This document shows, piece after piece, positions 48,687 to 56,703 of a stretch of DNA of 64,000 nt. Every line of letters starts with the position of its first letter. Within the stretch, counting starts at the first letter, position 1. The position numbers and the translations under genes are program-made. Under the pieces are notes generated by a model. That model saw nothing but the letters and a program-made list of their open reading frames with translations, made no database searches and was not told the DNA's origin. This stretch comes from Geomonas oryzisoli (GTDB lineage Bacteria > Desulfobacterota > Desulfuromonadia > Geobacterales > Geobacteraceae). The DNA is taken from contig NZ_CP076723.1 in NCBI RefSeq assembly GCF_018986915.1, positions 4,368,228-4,432,227 of the forward strand, given 5' to 3'.

Positions 48687-48715
48687 CTCATATCACCATA
48701 TTGAGAAGATTGCAA
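48687..48715 (-). promoter_or_regulatory. Sigma70-type promoter upstream of the riboswitch
   Basis: TTGCAA (48710-48715) and TATGAG (48687-48692), 17-bp spacer, minus strand. Transcription would begin about 8 nt before the riboswitch region. Confidence 0.6.
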
Positions 48716-48782
48716 CTATTATTTTCCCTTTCTTTTTGATCCTACGGAGCTGACACTGACACTGGTGTGGACCTAGAGGCCC

Positions 48783-49172
48783 GTTCTGAGAATGAGCAGC
48801 ACCTGCGCATACTCTCCCGGAGCCCTCGATCACTGGATCTGCCAGCAAGCTTATTTCTATCTCCAGTGCCTGCAGACTGGGGTCTACCAGCGAAACCGTC
48901 TTTCCCACCGCCTCCAATACCCTGAAGCGAACCTTCTCCTTCCCCGGGCTGAGGAAATTTCTGAAGTTACCGATGGTGCCGGGCATCTGCGTGATGGCCT
49001 GCATCATCTTTCCTACCTTGTCGTCCAGGTATTCTTCGGAAAGCTCCCCCAACCGGAGTGTCCTCGGAAGATCCTGGGCCAAAAGGGCGAGCACGTTGAG
49101 TGGCTGGCGCCACTGGTGGGCGATGTTGCTGATCATTTCCCCCATTGCCGCCAAGCGTCCCTGCTGGATCAA
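48783..49172 (-). pseudogene. Remnant of a histidine kinase (HisKA plus start of ATPase domain)
   Basis: A fragment of about 130 codons from LIQQGRLAAMGEMISNIAHQ to IEISLLADPVIEG, closely matching residues 218-350 of the intact kinase at 51903-53234, including the His of IAHQWRQPLN. It has no start of its own, joins directly onto the last codons of the 845-residue kinase, and loses frame near 48822 (shifting by one recovers EYAQVLL, the counterpart of DYSQVLL). The ATPase domain is missing. It is a decayed duplicate. Confidence 0.82.
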
Positions 49173-51706
49173 TAGGCGTAGCCCAGTCCCTCGGTGAAAT
49201 AGAAGGTAGCCCCGCTGCCGGGCTCGGATTCCGCCCATACCTTGCCGCCGTGCATTTCGATGACGCGTTGTACCGTGGCTAACCCGATACCGGTGCCATC
49301 GAATTTGGCCGTTGCCTCCAGCCGCTCGAAAGGAAGGAATATCTTGTGGGCATAGGCCATATCGAAGCCGATGCCGTTGTCCCGCACATAGTAGACGCTC
49401 TCGCCGCCCCTGCGGAAGTGGCCGAACTCTATCTTGGCGCCATCGACCCTGCTCGTGTATTTCCAGGCATTGCCCAACAGGTTGTACAGCGCAAGCTTCG
49501 CCAGGGCCGGATCAAACTGCCCCCAGCTTCCCTCGGCAACCTCCGTCTCCACCCTGCGTTTCGGCTCCTGCGTTACAAGCTCATTGACGATCTCGCCAAC
49601 CATCTCGGAGAGGTTGATCGTCTCCCGAACCATCTCCCTGCGCGTCACCCTCGAGAGCAGCAGGAGCCCCTCGACCAGGTGCCCCATCCGCGACGCGCTC
49701 GCCGCAATCCGCTCGAGGTAGTTCCTGCCCTCCGGGTCCATCCGCTCGCCATACTCCTCTAGGACGATGGCACTGAAGCAGTTCATGCTCCTCAAGGGCG
49801 AACCCAATTCATGGGCTACGGAGTAGCAGAAGGATTCCAGCTCCTTGTTGATCGCGGTGAGCTTCACCGTCCTTTCCTGGACCCGCTGCTCCAGCTCCTG
49901 GTTCAAAAGCCGCAGCGCGTCCTGTGCATTCAACGCCTCCTGCCTGGACTCCTGCAGGTCCATTGCCTGTAAGCGCAGCGCTTCGTCGGCGCGCAGCCGG
50001 CAGATCGTGTCCGCTGTCTGTCGGGAGAGGAGATCGAGCCGGCGCAGCGTCGCCTCGTCGGGCCGGCAGGCATTGCGGTAGTGGGTGGAAAACATGCCGA
50101 CCAGTTCACCCGACCGGCTTAACAGAGGGGTCGACTGCACCGCCCGCACTCCTGCACGCCGCTGGATCTCCAGCGCATCAGTTCCGACAAAGATGTCACT
50201 TTGCTCCACATCCTCTACGACGATCCGTTGACCAATGGCCGCAGACGCCCCGCAAGTCCCCTTTCCCTGCGCCGTCTGTTGCCAATAGTCGATCCACCAC
50301 TGAGGGAACCCCCTTTGCGCCACAATCACTAGGTCACCAGTCGCTGGGTCCATTAGCTGGATGTTGCCGAAATCTGCCCCTGTAATGGCAATAGCGGCAT
50401 CTACCACCTCCTCCAGCACCGACTGAAGGTTACCGTCGTGCACGAAGAGGGTACTGAGTTTCTGCAACCGCGTCATGGTGTCCAGCTCGCCGGCCAACTG
50501 ACGTTCCACCTCTTTGCGCTGGGTAACGTCCTCTATCAGCGCGACCATCCAACGGGGAGTCCCATCGGAGTCACGCACCAGCGACACGCTCTTACGCACC
50601 CAGATCGGATCCCCTCCTTTGCGCAGGTAACGGTTCTCCACCGTGAAATTAGGCAGCTCGCCGCCTAGCATGCGGCGAGCCAACTCCATGTTTTCTGCGC
50701 GGTCGTCCGGGTGGATCAACTGCGCCTGTCCCACTTGCTGCAGTTCGGTGAGCGTGTAGCCGGTGAGCTCCGTAAAGGCGGGATTGACGTCGATGAAGCG
50801 ACCCTTAACGGTCGCCATGGCGAAGCCGATGGTAGCGTGGGCAAACGCCGAGCGGATCTTTTCGTCTGTGCCATTCAACGCGAGGACCAGGACATCGTCA
50901 AAAGACTCCCCGGTCCTTCGCGCGCTGCGATCGGCAACCAGCAGGGCCGCCAGGAAGTACAACTCGCCGAGGTAGAGCGAGAACCGCCCCACCCACCCCA
51001 CCGGGCTCCCCACGCTGTGCTGAAGGAAGAAACCGGCCATACCTGTGGCCGTCAGGCCAAGGGCCCCGGCATACCACAGCAGAAAAGGCTCTCGATTGCG
51101 CTGGTAGGTGGCCAGAAAGGCTGTGAAGGAAAACAGGTTCAGCACAATCACGGAACCTAGCACCACCTGCCGGATCAAGGTCGCCCCCGTTCCTTGCACG
51201 AAGAAGAGCGGAAGCACGTCCTGCATGGTGCCTAAGACAAGCAGGGCAATGAAAAGGATTACCAAGCCGTAGGAGCAGGCGAGTAGCGCCGGTCGCCGCC
51301 GGGGAGCTGTTTGCGGATGTAACCCGGCAGCGAGGATGAATGCTACAAAGGCGTGCAGCAGCGCTCCAAGCAAGGCGGCGCAGTTGTAAATGGTGACATT
51401 GAGATTGGCACCGCCGGGAAGCCCGCGCACGATGCCCGCGAGTATGGCGCTGACGCCAACCGACAACATGGCCGATCCCAGCAGCAGCATCTTGATGCGA
51501 CCCGAAACCTGGTAATTCCGGGCCGCGATGACTGCCACCAGCAAGCTGACGCAGCCCACAAAAAGGGTATTGGTGATAAACAGGAGCCACGGAGGATCGT
51601 AGCAGAGGTGAGAGGCCGTGCGATGCAGAACAATCATCGGCAGCGGTAAGGCGAAGAAGGGCAGCAAAACATACCGGCGTCGCAACTGTAGTAGGAACGT
51701 CAGCAT
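49169..51706 (-). CDS. Membrane hybrid sensor: 7TM, PAS, GAF, histidine kinase
   Basis: An 845-residue sensor kinase. Residues 1-265 have seven or eight TM helices (a MASE-type integral membrane sensor; exact class uncertain). A PAS domain (about 285-400, ATIGFAMATVKGRFIDVNPAF) is followed by a GAF domain (about 420-570, TGADFGNIQLMDPATGDL), a coiled coil, HisKA with phospho-acceptor in CYSVAHELGSPLRSMN (about residue 630), and HATPase with LLGNAWKYT, RDNGIGFDMAY and GTGIGLATVQRVIEMHGG. Its C-terminal TEGLGYAY runs into the remnant of another kinase. No response regulator is adjacent. Confidence 0.9.
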   Translation of the reverse strand: MLTFLLQLRRRYVLLPFFALPLPMIVLHRTASHLCYDPPWLLFITNTLFVGCVSLLVAVIAARNYQVSGRIKMLLLGSAMLSVGVSAILAGIVRGLPGGANLNVTIYNCAALLGALLHAFVAFILAAGLHPQTAPRRRPALLACSYGLVILFIALLVLGTMQDVLPLFFVQGTGATLIRQVVLGSVIVLNLFSFTAFLATYQRNREPFLLWYAGALGLTATGMAGFFLQHSVGSPVGWVGRFSLYLGELYFLAALLVADRSARRTGESFDDVLVLALNGTDEKIRSAFAHATIGFAMATVKGRFIDVNPAFTELTGYTLTELQQVGQAQLIHPDDRAENMELARRMLGGELPNFTVENRYLRKGGDPIWVRKSVSLVRDSDGTPRWMVALIEDVTQRKEVERQLAGELDTMTRLQKLSTLFVHDGNLQSVLEEVVDAAIAITGADFGNIQLMDPATGDLVIVAQRGFPQWWIDYWQQTAQGKGTCGASAAIGQRIVVEDVEQSDIFVGTDALEIQRRAGVRAVQSTPLLSRSGELVGMFSTHYRNACRPDEATLRRLDLLSRQTADTICRLRADEALRLQAMDLQESRQEALNAQDALRLLNQELEQRVQERTVKLTAINKELESFCYSVAHELGSPLRSMNCFSAIVLEEYGERMDPEGRNYLERIAASASRMGHLVEGLLLLSRVTRREMVRETINLSEMVGEIVNELVTQEPKRRVETEVAEGSWGQFDPALAKLALYNLLGNAWKYTSRVDGAKIEFGHFRRGGESVYYVRDNGIGFDMAYAHKIFLPFERLEATAKFDGTGIGLATVQRVIEMHGGKVWAESEPGSGATFYFTEGLGYAY

Positions 51707-51902: not shown

Positions 51903-53234
51903 TCAGACCAGCAACCGGAACCTTGCGCCGCCATCGACGTTGCCGGCGGTGAGGGAGCCTCCCATATTTCTCTCTATGATCATCTTGGCCATGTACAGCC
52001 CAATCCCGGTCGCCTGCGGCCCCTTGGTGGTGAAATAGGGGTCGAAGATCTTCTCGGCGATTTCCGCCGGGATCCCCCCCCCGTTGTCCACGAGCGTCAC
52101 CACGGAATGTCCATCGCTCTCCCCAACCTCGATCCTGATGGTGGGATGCTCTACCTTCCTGGCTGCAAACACGTCCCTCGCGTTGATCAGTATGTTGAGC
52201 AGCACCTGTGAATAGTCGCCGGGATACCCTTCGACCATCGGGTCGGCGAAGGAGGAAACCGTTATATCGATGCTGAGTTCGCGCAGGCTGGCATGTACCA
52301 GAGACACCGTCTTTTGCACCGCCTCCAACACCCGGAAACGAACCTTCTCCGTCCCCGGGCTGAAGAAGTTCCTGAAATTGTCGATGGTGCGCGACATCTG
52401 CGTGATGGCCTCCATCATCTTGCGCACCTTCTCGTCAAGGTAGTCCTGGTCAAACTCCCCCAACCGGTAGGTCATGGGGAGGTCCTGGGCCAGCAAAGCG
52501 AGCACGTTCAGCGGCTGGCGCCACTGGTGCGCGATGTTGCTGATCATTTCGCCCATCGCCGCCAGGCGACCCTGCTGGATCAGCATCTGGTCCATCTGCC
52601 TCAACTGCTCGGCGGTACGCAACCGCTCCTCGCTTTCCCGTTGCAAGTCCCGATGGGCCCGGCACAACTCCTCGTGTTTTTCCTCCATCCTCTTCTCCGC
52701 GAGGGTCCTGGTACAAATCTCGGAGCGAAGCTGGATCTCAGTCATGACGGAAGCCGCCAGGTCCTCGATTACCGCTACCTGTGCGGAGGTCCACCTTCTT
52801 GGTTTGGAATCAATGACGCAGAACGAGCCGAGGATGTAGCCGTCGACGGTGGCGAGCGGGATACCCAGGTAGGCGATCACGTTCAGGTCCTTGATGGCGG
52901 GGTTGTCCTTGAAGAACGGGTGGAGCCGGGCGTCCGCGATGAGCAGCGGCTGCCTGGCGATGCGGTTGTATTGGCAGAAGGAGTGACTGAGCGGGGTCTC
53001 GCGGCGGGACTGCCACGGTTCGGGGAGGCCGACGCAGCTCTTGAAAAACTGCCGGTCCGCGTCCACCAGGCTGACCAGGGAGACCGGCGCGTCGACGAAC
53101 CGGGTCGCCAGCCGGGTCAGCCGATCAAAGGCTTCCTCGGCCGGGGTGTCAAGCAGGGCCACCGCTCGCAGCGCCGCGAGTCGGGTGGGATCGGCCACAT
53201 GGGTCGAGATGTCGCTGAAATTGTGATCGGTCAT
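51903..53234 (-). CDS. GAF-domain sensor histidine kinase (HQWRQPLN type)
   Basis: A 443-residue cytosolic kinase. A GAF domain (about 28-165: DTPAEEAFDRLTRLA, PLSHSFCQYNRIARQPLLIA, FKDNPAIKDL, IAYLGIPL) is followed by a coiled coil (175-217), HisKA with His236 in IAHQWRQPLN, and HATPase with LLNILINARD, DNGGGIP, FDPYFTTK and GTGIGLYMAK. The H-box belongs to the group common in Geobacter. Signal unknown. A partial copy of this gene lies at 48783-49172. Confidence 0.92.
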   Translation of the reverse strand: MTDHNFSDISTHVADPTRLAALRAVALLDTPAEEAFDRLTRLATRFVDAPVSLVSLVDADRQFFKSCVGLPEPWQSRRETPLSHSFCQYNRIARQPLLIADARLHPFFKDNPAIKDLNVIAYLGIPLATVDGYILGSFCVIDSKPRRWTSAQVAVIEDLAASVMTEIQLRSEICTRTLAEKRMEEKHEELCRAHRDLQRESEERLRTAEQLRQMDQMLIQQGRLAAMGEMISNIAHQWRQPLNVLALLAQDLPMTYRLGEFDQDYLDEKVRKMMEAITQMSRTIDNFRNFFSPGTEKVRFRVLEAVQKTVSLVHASLRELSIDITVSSFADPMVEGYPGDYSQVLLNILINARDVFAARKVEHPTIRIEVGESDGHSVVTLVDNGGGIPAEIAEKIFDPYFTTKGPQATGIGLYMAKMIIERNMGGSLTAGNVDGGARFRLLV

Positions 53235-53467
53235 TTAGCTTTCCCACGGTATCGGCCAAGAGCACAGGTGGAAAAGTATCAGGAATTTGCCGGGTTTCAA
53301 GCATTGCCGCCTTTGGGGCGAGGTTGCATGGAGGCGCCGCCCCCGCCGGCATCAGCCACTCGCCATGAGAATTCCCTCTCTATTTTGGGTATTTACACGT
53401 TTCCGGCAAATCAAATATGATGTGGAGGGTTTTGTAAACGAATGCGGCATTCACGGTAGGAACAGGC

Positions 53468-53821
53468 ATGGCCAAGATCATTTCATTGGAGCAGACGCGG
53501 CAGGCGATCGAAAAAAGAAGGGAAGCGGAGACGCTTTTGCGCAGCACCGAGGATGACATCACCGCCATCCTCAACGATTACTCCCTGACACCGGCCAACC
53601 GGCGCTGGAAGCTGGAAAACATGCTGATGGACGTCGATGAGCAGCTGGACCAGTACCGCAAGGAGCTCGAGACCGCAGAGAGGAAGCTGAACGCACTCGT
53701 GGCAAGCGCCGAAGGCGAAATCGCACGTGCCTATGGCGAGTTTGAAACCAAGGTGCGCGGCATGACCATCGCCGTCAGGAAGCTGACCGGCTCCCCGCAC
53801 CCCGATCCCGTCACCGAATAA
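53468..53821 (+). CDS. Hypothetical coiled-coil protein, 117 residues
   Basis: A soluble, charged, mostly helical protein with heptad-like segments (TRQAIEKRREAETLLRSTED; EQLDQYRKELETAERKLNAL). No family recognised. The start has AGGAACAGGC upstream rather than a strong site. A GC-rich hairpin without T-run (53827-53848) follows. It is followed on the same strand by the selenoprotein gene, 132 bp on. Confidence 0.6.
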   Translation: MAKIISLEQTRQAIEKRREAETLLRSTEDDITAILNDYSLTPANRRWKLENMLMDVDEQLDQYRKELETAERKLNALVASAEGEIARAYGEFETKVRGMTIAVRKLTGSPHPDPVTE

Positions 53822-53826
53822 CAACC

Positions 53827-53848
53827 GGCGCCCCTGCCGGGCGCCGCC
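53827..53848. terminator. GC-rich hairpin, weak terminator candidate
   Basis: GGCGCC, CCTGCC loop and GGGCGCC after the coiled-coil gene; no T-run. Confidence 0.35.
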
Positions 53849-53953
53849 CCCTCCCCCCGTCACCGACCGCAGGTTAAGGTTTCCAGAGGCTCGCGTTTGT
53901 GCTAGTTATGTACACGTTCCGTCAGCACAGCTCTCCCTGCAAGGAGGTGGACC

Positions 53954-54208
53954 ATGAAAATCCGTAAGAAGATCCTGGATTTCGAGTATGAGGAAGTGCT
54001 CGAGGTCAAGTACCGGGAACTGATCCGCGTCGCCTGCGCCGTGGCCGTCGGCTGTCCGGACTGACTGAAGAAACACTTCGCGGTCGCGAAGGAGGCAGGC
54101 GCCACCGAAGCGGAACTGAACGAAGCCATGGCCTACGGCATCATCGCGCCGTCGGGACGGGCCAAGAACTTCGTGCGCAGCCAGGAAGACATTTTAAAAG
54201 AGCTGTAG
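53954..54208 (+). CDS. AhpD-like (carboxymuconolactone decarboxylase family) selenoprotein, UGA read as Sec
   Basis: Eighty-four codons start at the ATG at 53954, three bases after a perfect AAGGAGGTGG site. Codon 37 is TGA (54062-54064) and the frame continues to TAG at 54206-54208. With Sec at position 37 the core reads VAVGCPDULKKHF, exactly the AhpD active-site pattern CxxCxxxH with Sec in place of the second Cys, then KEAGATEAELNEAMAYG, a family hallmark. Eleven bases after the TGA lies a hairpin, CTTCGC-GGTC-GCGAAG (54076-54091), with the GGUC loop of bacterial SECIS elements. It is likely a thiol/selenol peroxidase or disulfide oxidoreductase. An ordinary gene caller would cut it at 36 codons. 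Confidence 0.88.
54076..54091 (+). other. Bacterial SECIS element within the AhpD-like gene
   Basis: A 6-bp stem with the four-base loop GGTC, 11 nt after the in-frame TGA, in line with the E. coli fdhF element (loop containing GGUC, 11-nt spacing). SelB would bind it to direct selenocysteine incorporation. Confidence 0.85.
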
Positions 54209-54215
54209 TGCCAAC

Positions 54216-54294
54216 AGGGACGAAGGGGGTGCAGGGGATACCGCCGGTTGCGGCCGCGCGCTATCCCTTTTATCCCCTTCATCCCTGTTCGCCG
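54216..54294. repeat. Imperfect long hairpin (family E) before the MATE gene
   Basis: CAGGGACGAAGGGGGTGCAG with GGGATA, and the inverted partner TATCCCTTTTATCCCCTTC with ATCCCTG, around a GC-rich loop. It may end the selenoprotein transcript. Confidence 0.6.
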
Positions 54295-54310
54295 TAAGGT
54301 TTTCCCCATC

Positions 54311-55654
54311 TTGAAACGTCTCACTCTCAACAAATCGACCAAGCGGGTATCGATCCGGCGTAACGTCGCTGCACTGTCGATGCCGGTGCTCCTCTCCTCG
54401 CTGTTCCAGCGCCTGGTTTCCATCGTGGACATCTTCATGGTCGGGGGGCTCGGGGCCGCGGCCATTGCGGCAACCGGCCTCGGGCAGCTCCTCATCTTCG
54501 TCACCATGACGGTATTCTGGGGCTTCTCCACCGGCGCCAACGTGGTCATCGCCCATCTCTGGGGCGCGGGACGGCGCCTGGAAGCCCGCCGGACCGCCTT
54601 CGCCTCGCTCCTCTTCTGCGCGCTCCTCGCCGTGGCCGCAACCTTCCTGGGTATGGGATTCGGCAGGGACATCGCGGTGTTTCTCGGCGCGAGCCCGGAC
54701 GTGCTCGCCTACGCCTCGGACTACATCCGCCTGGTCTTCCTCTATTTCGGCTTCACCGCCGGACTCAATATCCTGTCCGCCATCATGCAGGGGACCGGCA
54801 ACACCCGCACCCCGATGGAAGGGATCCTCTTGGTGAACGTCCTGCACGTTGCCATCGCCTATCCCCTGATCTACGGGCACCTTGGCTTCCCGCGCTACGG
54901 CGTACTCGGGGCCGCCTACGCCATCAACCTCTCCGAAGCTGCCGGCTTCAGCTACCTCTTGATCCAGGCTCTCAGGAAGGGATACCTGAAGATCGGGCGC
55001 CCCGACCTGGCCCTGTTGCAGAAGGTGATCGGCATCGGCTACCCGGTGGCGCTGGAGCGCGTGGCCCAGCAGTCAGGCCAGCTGTTCTACTCCAAGTTCA
55101 TCATCGGCTTCGGCACCGCCGCCTACGCCGCCCACCAGATCGGCCTCTCCATCGAATCGCTCTCCTTCATGCCCGGCGCGGGGATGGGGATCGCCGCGGC
55201 GACCCTTATGGGACAATCAATAGGAGCCAGAAAGCTCAGGCGCGCCCATATGAGTCACACCGAAGCCCTCCGGCTGGCGGTCCTGGTCATGGGGGCCATG
55301 GCCCTGCTCTTCTTCTTCCTGCCGCACCACCTGATCGCCCTTTTCACCCACGACCCGGACGTTATCGAGAAGGGAAGCGTCTTCCTGCGGCTGGTCGCCT
55401 TCGCCCAGGTACCGCTCGCCATCTCCTTCGTCTACGCCGGGAGCCTGCGCGGCACCGGCGACACCCACTACGTCTTCCTGGTGACCCTGGTGTCCATGTG
55501 GGGGATCCGGGTGCTCCTCTCCTACATCGCCGCCGTCCCGCTGCAGCTCTCTCTCTACGCCGTCTGGGGCGTCTTCCTTATCGACTGGTTCTTCCGGGCC
55601 GGCGCCTTCTGGTGGCGCTACCAGCGCCGCGACCTGCACCAGGTCATCATCTGA
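54311..55654 (+). CDS. MATE-family efflux transporter
   Basis: A 447-residue exporter with 12 TM segments (NVAALSMPVLLSSLFQRLVS, IVDIFMVGGLGAAAIAATGL, FSTGANVVIAHLWGAGRR, GMGIAAATLMGQSIGA in order). It exchanges organic cations for Na+/H+. The TTG at 54311 (LKRLTLNKSTKR) is preferred as start since the upstream part up to 54248 lies in a hairpin repeat; the choice is not certain. The methyltransferase gene follows after 2 bp. Confidence 0.88.
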   Translation: MKRLTLNKSTKRVSIRRNVAALSMPVLLSSLFQRLVSIVDIFMVGGLGAAAIAATGLGQLLIFVTMTVFWGFSTGANVVIAHLWGAGRRLEARRTAFASLLFCALLAVAATFLGMGFGRDIAVFLGASPDVLAYASDYIRLVFLYFGFTAGLNILSAIMQGTGNTRTPMEGILLVNVLHVAIAYPLIYGHLGFPRYGVLGAAYAINLSEAAGFSYLLIQALRKGYLKIGRPDLALLQKVIGIGYPVALERVAQQSGQLFYSKFIIGFGTAAYAAHQIGLSIESLSFMPGAGMGIAAATLMGQSIGARKLRRAHMSHTEALRLAVLVMGAMALLFFFLPHHLIALFTHDPDVIEKGSVFLRLVAFAQVPLAISFVYAGSLRGTGDTHYVFLVTLVSMWGIRVLLSYIAAVPLQLSLYAVWGVFLIDWFFRAGAFWWRYQRRDLHQVII

Positions 55655-55656
55655 CC

Positions 55657-56703
55657 ATGCAGCTTTCGTTCATACCGTCCACAGACGAGCGCGAGATCAA
55701 ACTGCGCCTGGAACGACTCCTCGTCCCCGGTTCCCTGCTCGACGCCCGATTGGAGCGTCGCATCCAGCGCCTCGGCGCCGAGTTCGCAAGCTACGCCGCC
55801 GGCTATCCTCTCCCCCTGTGGGCTCCCGGCCTCGCCGTTAACAACGAGATGCGGGGGGTGACCGAGGCCCTGTTTCCCCTGGCCCGCCCCCGCGCCGTGT
55901 TCGAACTGGTTCTGCGCCGGGGGTGCCGCTTCTCCCCTCTTTTGTCCGCGAGCTACCTGCACAGCTCGGCGAGCTGGATCGACCTGCTCCAGAAGCTCAC
56001 GCCACGAATCAGTGCCGATCCCGTTCCGGCGTTGCGCCTGATCGCCGAGGACGGGGATACCCGCGCCGCGTTTCTGTTCGCCCTGATGCTGCCACAGCAC
56101 TTCGGCGGCGGCTTCGACCGCTATCCGGAGCAGTACCGGTGGCTGGCCCGGTGGCTTGGCGAGCAGGCAGGACAATTCTCCACGGGGATGAGGGTTCTCG
56201 ATGCCGCCTGCGGCAGCGGCGAAGGAACCTACCAGGCGGCACAGCTGCTGGCGCAGGCGGGGCTCGGCGCCCAAAGTACGGTGCACGGTTCGACACTGGA
56301 GCCGATCGAACTGTTCGCTGCCGCTCATCTTCATTTCCCCCACGATCTCGAACGGGAGCGAGAGTACCGGGCCCAGGTCCAACCGCTCTTGGACGGCAAC
56401 TGCGCGCCCACCCTCGAGTTCTACCTGGACCGCGTGGACGCCGCACCGCAGCGGGAGCCGTACCACCTGGTGCTCTGCAACGGGCTGCTGGGTGGACCGC
56501 TGCTGCACGAGCCGACCCAGTTAGCCGAGGCCTTTGCAGGGCTTGCCGCCCGACTCGCACCCGGCGGGCTGCTGCTCGCCGCCGACCGCTTCCATGCCGG
56601 CTGGCGCCTGCGCGTACCGCGGGAGGCGCTAATCGCCTGCCTGCGCACCGCGGGTCTCACACCGACCCAAGTTCCCGAAGGGATCGCAGGGATAAAGCAT
56701 TAA
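55657..56703 (+). CDS. SAM-dependent methyltransferase domain protein
   Basis: A 348-residue soluble protein with a class I methyltransferase SAM motif I, VLDAACGSGEGTYQAA, near residue 182, a GSTLEPIELFAAAHLH acidic strand, and YHLVLCNGLLGG as motif IV. The layout resembles CheR-like methyltransferases. The N-terminal 150 residues are of unknown function. Its ATG is 2 bp after the MATE stop codon, hence co-translated. Substrate is unknown; the pairing may reflect a small-molecule modification and export function. Confidence 0.75.
   Translation: MQLSFIPSTDEREIKLRLERLLVPGSLLDARLERRIQRLGAEFASYAAGYPLPLWAPGLAVNNEMRGVTEALFPLARPRAVFELVLRRGCRFSPLLSASYLHSSASWIDLLQKLTPRISADPVPALRLIAEDGDTRAAFLFALMLPQHFGGGFDRYPEQYRWLARWLGEQAGQFSTGMRVLDAACGSGEGTYQAAQLLAQAGLGAQSTVHGSTLEPIELFAAAHLHFPHDLEREREYRAQVQPLLDGNCAPTLEFYLDRVDAAPQREPYHLVLCNGLLGGPLLHEPTQLAEAFAGLAARLAPGGLLLAADRFHAGWRLRVPREALIACLRTAGLTPTQVPEGIAGIKH

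Follow-up and report, generated by a model that had tools for sequence, protein, structure and literature searches.

A selenoprotein gene of the GSU3128 family with an in-frame TGA and a conserved SECIS-like hairpin

The window, a stretch of 64,000 nucleotides, carries a short gene which is almost certainly a selenoprotein gene of the GSU3128 family, and its product is most likely a small selenol/thiol redox enzyme. The frame of 84 codons with a TGA at codon 37 that the first-pass annotation had proposed was borne out at 53954-54208 (+): it opens with ATG at 53954, ends with TAG at 54208 and holds a single internal TGA, in the context CPDU-LKKH. The claimed ribosome binding site was likewise found ahead of the ATG, and the features of the gene are collected in Table 1. 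A scan of 53400-54420 for sigma-70 promoters found none, and in the same interval there are four terminator-like sites (1.5 expected), which all lie on the minus strand and of which the SECIS-like hairpin itself is one. An imperfect inverted repeat at 54213-54290, in the gap separating the selenoprotein gene from the MATE exporter gene, is possibly a terminator or an intergenic repeat.

Table 1. Features of the selenoprotein gene in the window, with the observation on which each of them is based.
Feature	Position	Strand	Basis
Selenoprotein gene, 84 residues, GSU3128 family (NF041047), predicted CMD/AhpD core fold	53954..54208	+	TGA translated as U, profile scores
Ribosome binding site AAGGAGGTGG	53941..53950	+	Just 5' of the ATG, sequence reading
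Sec37, in-frame TGA read as selenocysteine; place of AhpD Cys133	54062..54064	+	U in 98/98 genomes over the cut-off
Glu22 codon; place of AhpD Glu118	54017..54019	+	Invariant in 30/30 rows of alignment A1
Cys34 codon; place of AhpD Cys130	54053..54055	+	Invariant in 30/30 rows; CxxUxxxH in 103/103 genes
His41 codon; place of AhpD His137	54074..54076	+	Invariant in 30/30 rows; CxxUxxxH in 103/103 genes
SECIS-like hairpin CTTCGC-GGTC-GCGAAG	54076..54091	+	All six pairs in 99/103 distinct genes

The translated protein reaches 161.7 bits with the NCBIfam model NF041047, "GSU3128 family (seleno)protein" (cut-off 110), residues 1-78 lying on profile positions 1-79 of 84, and it has the CxxU motif given for this family in a passage of PMC13188914, here as CPDU with the in-frame TGA. 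The Pfam domain CMD (PF02627) matches with 51.1 bits (gathering cut-off 23) over residues 13-62, a span which includes the TGA. The term AhpD-like, used in the first-pass annotation, is justified as far as the CMD/AhpD core domain goes, where TIGR00778 gives 37.5 bits (cut-off 27.8), and fails for the AhpD family proper, where TIGR00777 gives 14.5 bits against a cut-off of 191.95. The 4-carboxymuconolactone decarboxylase PcaC (TIGR02425) was also considered and rejected, with 21.3 bits against a cut-off of 155.7.

The family is known from earlier work. In a passage of a 2026 review (PMC13188914), NF041047 is described as a "distant alkylhydroperoxidase (AhpD) homolog" with the motif CxxU, in a row which cites reference 12 of that review, Zhang et al. 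2006 being its reference 118; a distant AhpD homolog with CxxU is also among the entries seen in a 2022 review (PMC9312934). A passage of Zhang et al. 2006 (PMC1794560) assigns to both Geobacter sulfurreducens and G. uraniireducens (spelled differently there) a selenoprotein named "distant AhpD homolog", and part of a prediction paper of 2005 (PMC1242214) has a G. sulfurreducens candidate matching 4-carboxymuconolactone decarboxylase, which is probably the same protein as the GSU3128-family member. Since the selenoprotein family to which it belongs has been reported before from Geobacter relatives, the gene is genuine but not new, and since NF041047 is a curated NCBIfam model and the family is listed in reviews, its earlier description as hidden is out of date as far as the family is concerned. 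The window gene agrees with the family in length, in its full-length profile match, in the CxxU motif and in its presence in Geobacter relatives; no difference of weight was found, and we regard it simply as the member of the family in its genome. Our literature search found no description of the function of the GSU3128 family. Beyond the published passages cited here, the additions of this study are small, namely that Sec is kept in every genome over the family cut-off, that the hairpin has seemingly moved by one codon in one genus, and that the UGA gene is kept in two genomes without visible Sec machinery.

The genome of the window (4,846,465 bases in one contig) has the complete decoding set on which the proposal of a selenoprotein depended, each gene being over its cut-off: selA with 600.7 bits, selB with 393.5 bits, selD with 360.6 bits and likewise with an internal TGA, and tRNA-Sec (selC) with a score of 74.9 against a gathering score of 47.

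Conservation of the selenocysteine was followed in two surveys. In the same order, 141 genomes were covered, 91 of which have a match to NF041047 over the cut-off, each with exactly one TGA, while a draw of 395 genomes from the phylum gave 16 over the cut-off, nine of them already among the 91, together with five weaker matches (65.6-71.1 bits at E<=1e-15), all 21 matches having one TGA. The total over the cut-off is therefore 98 genomes, and 103 distinct genes were read (98 strong, five weak); one row, L125 of genome G133, which lies below the cut-off and has a run of unread bases, was left out of the counts. The residue at the TGA is U and never Cys in 98 of the 98 genomes, even though a Cys codon is one base away from UGA, and in all 103 distinct genes U stands at residue 36-38 within C-x-x-U-x-x-x-H. 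A scan of GTDB contigs with a Cys-coded pattern returned 45 loci, many from the same genomes, and all 42 close loci have U, so that no Cys form over the cut-off was found in the 98 genomes or among these 42 loci; we would expect the NF041047 profile not to disfavour Cys. The matches listed below the cut-off, many of them without the stop, are other CMD proteins. One locus, L208, has Cys at the position but looks like a general CMD protein, and the patterns found in L209 fall outside its tblastn match. Homologues with Cys or Sec at this position, which the selenoprotein claim called for, accordingly exist, and over the cut-off they are Sec homologues.

Six distant relatives below the NF041047 cut-off, with about 66-81 bits (L065-L069 and L207), come from other families of the phylum and, in the case of L207, from a Coriobacteriales MAG in which U again stands at the position. 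All six have U and a hairpin at the same place, and four of the six carry CSHU, CAHU or CGHU, which resembles the CSHC of AhpD.

Presence of the gene goes together with presence of the machinery, with some exceptions. Among the order genomes, selA is found in 87 of the 91 with the gene and in 33 of the 50 without it (Fisher p 5e-6, with relatedness ignored, which makes the value too small because related genomes are not independent). Defining an exception as no selA match at E<=1e-60, there are four among the 91, namely G072, G081, G091 and G100. Of these, G072 and G100 are 66% complete and both have selB, G100 also having tRNA-Sec. The other two, G081 (gene L102; 96% complete) and G091 (gene L096; 99% complete), have an intact UGA gene with its hairpin, and in both the searches for selA (E<=0.001) and selB (E<=1e-60) found nothing, nor did any of the 150 tRNA candidates scored per genome (of 332 and 373, respectively) exceed the gathering score for tRNA-Sec. 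No selD over the cut-off was found in G081, while G091 has a selD without a TGA, as does G096, which has selA and selB. By coordinates, selA and selB are adjacent in six of ten relatives of that genus, so that a single gap or a single loss could be enough to take away the pair. G081 and G091 speak against a strict tie between gene and machinery, the plain explanations being assembly gaps or recent loss.

The hairpin starting 11 nt after the TGA, which the first-pass annotation had described as SECIS-like with a GGUC loop, is present with six perfect pairs and a GGTC loop and is conserved in sequence and place, but a search with Rfam for bacterial SECIS found none at E<=1; the Rfam hits listed were four microRNA models far below their gathering scores, lying on the inverted repeat after the stop codon. 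All six pairs occur at +11 in 99 of the 103 distinct genes, the outermost pair being C-G in 95, U-A in three and U-G in one. The loop is GGTC in 68 of these hairpins, GGCC in 10, GGGC in nine, CCTG in five, AGGT in three and another sequence in four, with GG present in 91 and lacking in eight. The hairpin of L058, L080, L082 and L089 lies one codon further downstream, with 6-8 pairs and a GGCA loop, and these four genes belong to one genus of the order. As seven of the eight genes whose hairpin lacks GG have the LAK peptide variant and come from that same genus, the SECIS signal seems to be moving by one codon there. In alignment A3 (25 rows), five of the six pairs are invariant and a change on both sides is present in just two cells, so that covariation alone is thin. 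Taken in the single sequence, the hairpin is weak evidence by itself; the comparative evidence exceeds chance.

Two readings of the same data would deny either the hairpin or the selenocysteine itself. According to one, the gene encodes a selenoprotein, the hairpin is a mere by-product, owed to the GC-rich codons that encode HFAVAK, and the true SECIS signal is located elsewhere, which we consider very improbable. Codons +4 to +9 after the UGA, which are the six codons of the hairpin, form the longest and strongest run of synonymous freeze in the 98 genes (Phe +5 is TTC in 94 of 94, Val is GTC in 68 of 69, Ala +8 is GCG in 94 of 98 and Lys +9 is AAG in 95 of 98, in contrast to Phe +36 with TTC in 42 and TTT in 56), and this speaks against a by-product, although such a hairpin also arises there in 8.5% of 200,000 sequences made by drawing synonymous codons for this peptide at random from local usage. 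Eight codons outside the hairpin were also flagged with smaller effects (-33, -26, -14, -13, -8, +23, +24 and +32). The 50-nt segment shows no unusual stability (z -1.04). Folded at lowest energy, it adopts another structure, which, together with the pairs that never vary in A3 and the loops without GG, would suit a by-product; the change of C-G to U-A in three of the 103 genes, the displaced GGCA-loop hairpin in just those four genes that lack the one at +11, and the ability of the SelD gene of the same genome to form a hairpin whose loop has its GG equally far from the UGA all argue for a genuine signal. The other reading takes the TGA as the true stop that it is under table 11, leaving a 36-residue peptide and a downstream half that is a relic or untranslated, and G081 and G091, which keep the gene though Sec machinery was not found there, are in line with it. 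We hold it to be extremely improbable, since pN/pS over all pairs of the 98 genes is 0.207 before the TGA and 0.219 after it (0.239 after it when the first nine codons are excluded), which means that selection is alike on both sides. In addition, invariant residues flank the TGA, so that the earlier statement of conserved residues on both sides stands, the CMD domain extends across it, and the genome has all four Sec genes.

The predicted model of the protein, with Sec folded as Cys, has a pLDDT of 95.4 and begins with a beta hairpin at its N-terminus (4-7, 10-13), after which come the helices 18-32, 35-47 and 52-83. When 246 chains were aligned, the nearest were CMD/AhpD-like proteins: RclX (7y4r_B), the best structural match, gave Z 10.5 with rmsd 3.7 over 79 residues, and 3bey_A gave Z 9.9 and rmsd 3.3 over 74 residues, Z values which, being below about 13 in helical bundles, may reflect a common arrangement only. 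The best Foldseek E-value is 1.5e-3, to 3bey, while in the comparison of the sequence profile with solved structures the best match is 7y4r_A, again RclX, with E 9.1e-13. Because Z is modest for a helical protein and the Foldseek E-value is weak, the assignment of the fold also leans on the sequence profiles, and from both we predict a minimal CMD/AhpD-core protein with a CMD/AhpD-like fold.

The residues E22, C34, U37 and H41 are invariant in the 30 rows of alignment A1, which were chosen from the 103 distinct genes. The relay residues of M. tuberculosis AhpD include Glu118, Cys130, His132, Cys133 and His137, according to a passage of PMC3141380, and the Glu, the Cys, the second Cys/Sec and the His have the same spacing in both proteins, so that the TGA does stand in the place of the second active-site Cys of AhpD and is followed by the His, as had been claimed. 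The core of the window protein also superposes on AhpD (1gu9_H) with Z 6.2 and rmsd 1.5 over 67 residues. In contrast to AhpD, the window protein has Sec for Cys133 and, in the model, the N-terminal beta hairpin; its length is 84 residues, compared with about 175, and with its score it stays well short of the cut-off for the AhpD family. Of the five relay residues, His132 is not kept, being replaced by Asp36 in the window protein and by Thr in 68 of the 98 genes. With regard to RclX, passages of PMC7950407 state that P. aeruginosa needs it against HOCl and HOSCN, that it has four catalytic residues with CXXC, and that rclX is regulated by rclR against HOCl/HOSCN. The likeness to RclX lies in its being the best match both in structure and in sequence among solved structures, whereas RclX carries Cys where the window protein has Sec and is longer, at 112 residues, and nothing of the rclR/HOCl/HOSCN regulation was seen for the window gene.

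The neighbourhood was surveyed in 104 distinct loci with roughly 0.4 to 4 kb of flanking sequence to either side, and the representatives of the clusters were judged by eye. Neighbour open reading frames were called longest first with TGA as a stop, and in some loci antisense frames were taken (e.g., cluster 6 over the MATE gene); because this calling is crude, the counts are lower bounds. The nearest downstream gene is a MATE exporter in at least 25 of 102 cases, the identity coming from the Pfam match of the window's gene. Upstream, the nearest gene belongs in at least 24 of 103 cases to a cluster that we take from its sequences to be GlnE-like, and in at least eight of 103 to one presumed HemG-like on the same basis. 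No clear functional partner emerged among the neighbours of these 104 loci. The gene after the MATE gene, at 55654-56700 (+), has a weak methyltransferase match (20.2 bits, below the cut-off of 27), and its relatives form cluster 8, present in nine of the 104 loci. Ahead of the selenoprotein gene, at 53468-53821 (+), lies a frame for a 117-residue protein with no Pfam match, and proteins similar to it by eye form a cluster in eight of the 104 loci. On the minus strand, the frames 48693-49238 and 51903-53234 have a near-identical histidine-kinase stretch in common, and the former may be a broken copy of the latter.

As to the mechanism, SelB carrying Sec-tRNA-Sec would bind the predicted SECIS hairpin soon after the UGA and insert Sec at residue 37, as the conserved hairpin and the complete sel gene set suggest. 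Conservation and spacing place the pair of Cys34-Pro-Asp-Sec37 opposite Glu22 and His41, with the residues spaced as in the proton relay of AhpD. In AhpD, the second Cys is the residue that attacks the substrate. By analogy of position, the His41/Glu22 relay would activate the Sec37 selenolate, which would go on to reduce a peroxide or some other oxidised thiol substrate; Cys34 as the resolving partner would then form a selenenyl-sulfide with it, and a thioredoxin-like or lipoyl donor may reduce this bond again. In our judgment, peroxide reduction or an adaptor function is slightly favoured over some other redox reaction; the peroxidase part rests on family resemblance, because no peroxiredoxin or thioredoxin was recognised by eye among the neighbour clusters inspected.

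The substrate could also be of another kind. ArsM-AhpD (NF041537) and MduS (NF045649) have a related CMD core in their C-terminal part, and it can be hypothesized that the selenoprotein is the stand-alone counterpart of this AhpD domain, carrying out thiol/selenol chemistry on arsenic, selenium or metal-thiol adducts, with peroxide not being its substrate; we think this a possible but rather unlikely reading. Four of the distant members (L065, L066, L069 and L207) score 42-53 bits with the C-terminal part of NF041537 (ArsM_AhpD_UU) and 39-53 with NF045649, the window protein reaching 33.3 and 32.7, but none of these values comes near the respective cut-offs, which are 510 and 380 bits, and since all these domains share one core, they indicate kinship of domains and not a shared substrate. 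Judging by the names of the models, ArsM-AhpD and MduS are methyltransferase fusions, in contrast to the window gene, which stands alone. The methyltransferase-like neighbour would fit this chemistry, yet it is set apart from the selenoprotein gene by the MATE gene and has relatives in few loci. Chemistry which needs Sec is suggested by the finding of no Cys forms over the family cut-off. A further thought, which we regard as doubtful, is that the GSU3128 family is obligately Sec-dependent, with a reaction that is maybe impossible for Cys, and that the UGA gene is maybe decoded by an unrecognised route in the two relatives without the machinery. If this were true, examples of substrates would be selenium, arsenic or chlorine oxidant adducts, not ordinary peroxides.

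The gene is a clean case of Sec recoding, with one stop codon, one hairpin, four decoding genes and Sec kept throughout the genomes examined over the cut-off. It represents no new type of system. The small and confidently predicted protein would be a suitable test case for two questions, namely why no Cys forms are seen of some CxxU enzymes and which partner reduces AhpD-like selenoproteins.

A second and shorter CMD family with an in-frame TGA was encountered in the same order, in the eight loci L210-L216 and L218, with the motif CxxU-L-x-W/Y/H-H and with GCCCGTGAGG after the TGA in all eight. The three of its proteins that were compared with NCBIfam are over no cut-off there except that of the general ahpD_dom, and both proteins checked with Pfam have a CMD match. 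It is probably another AhpD-like selenoprotein family.
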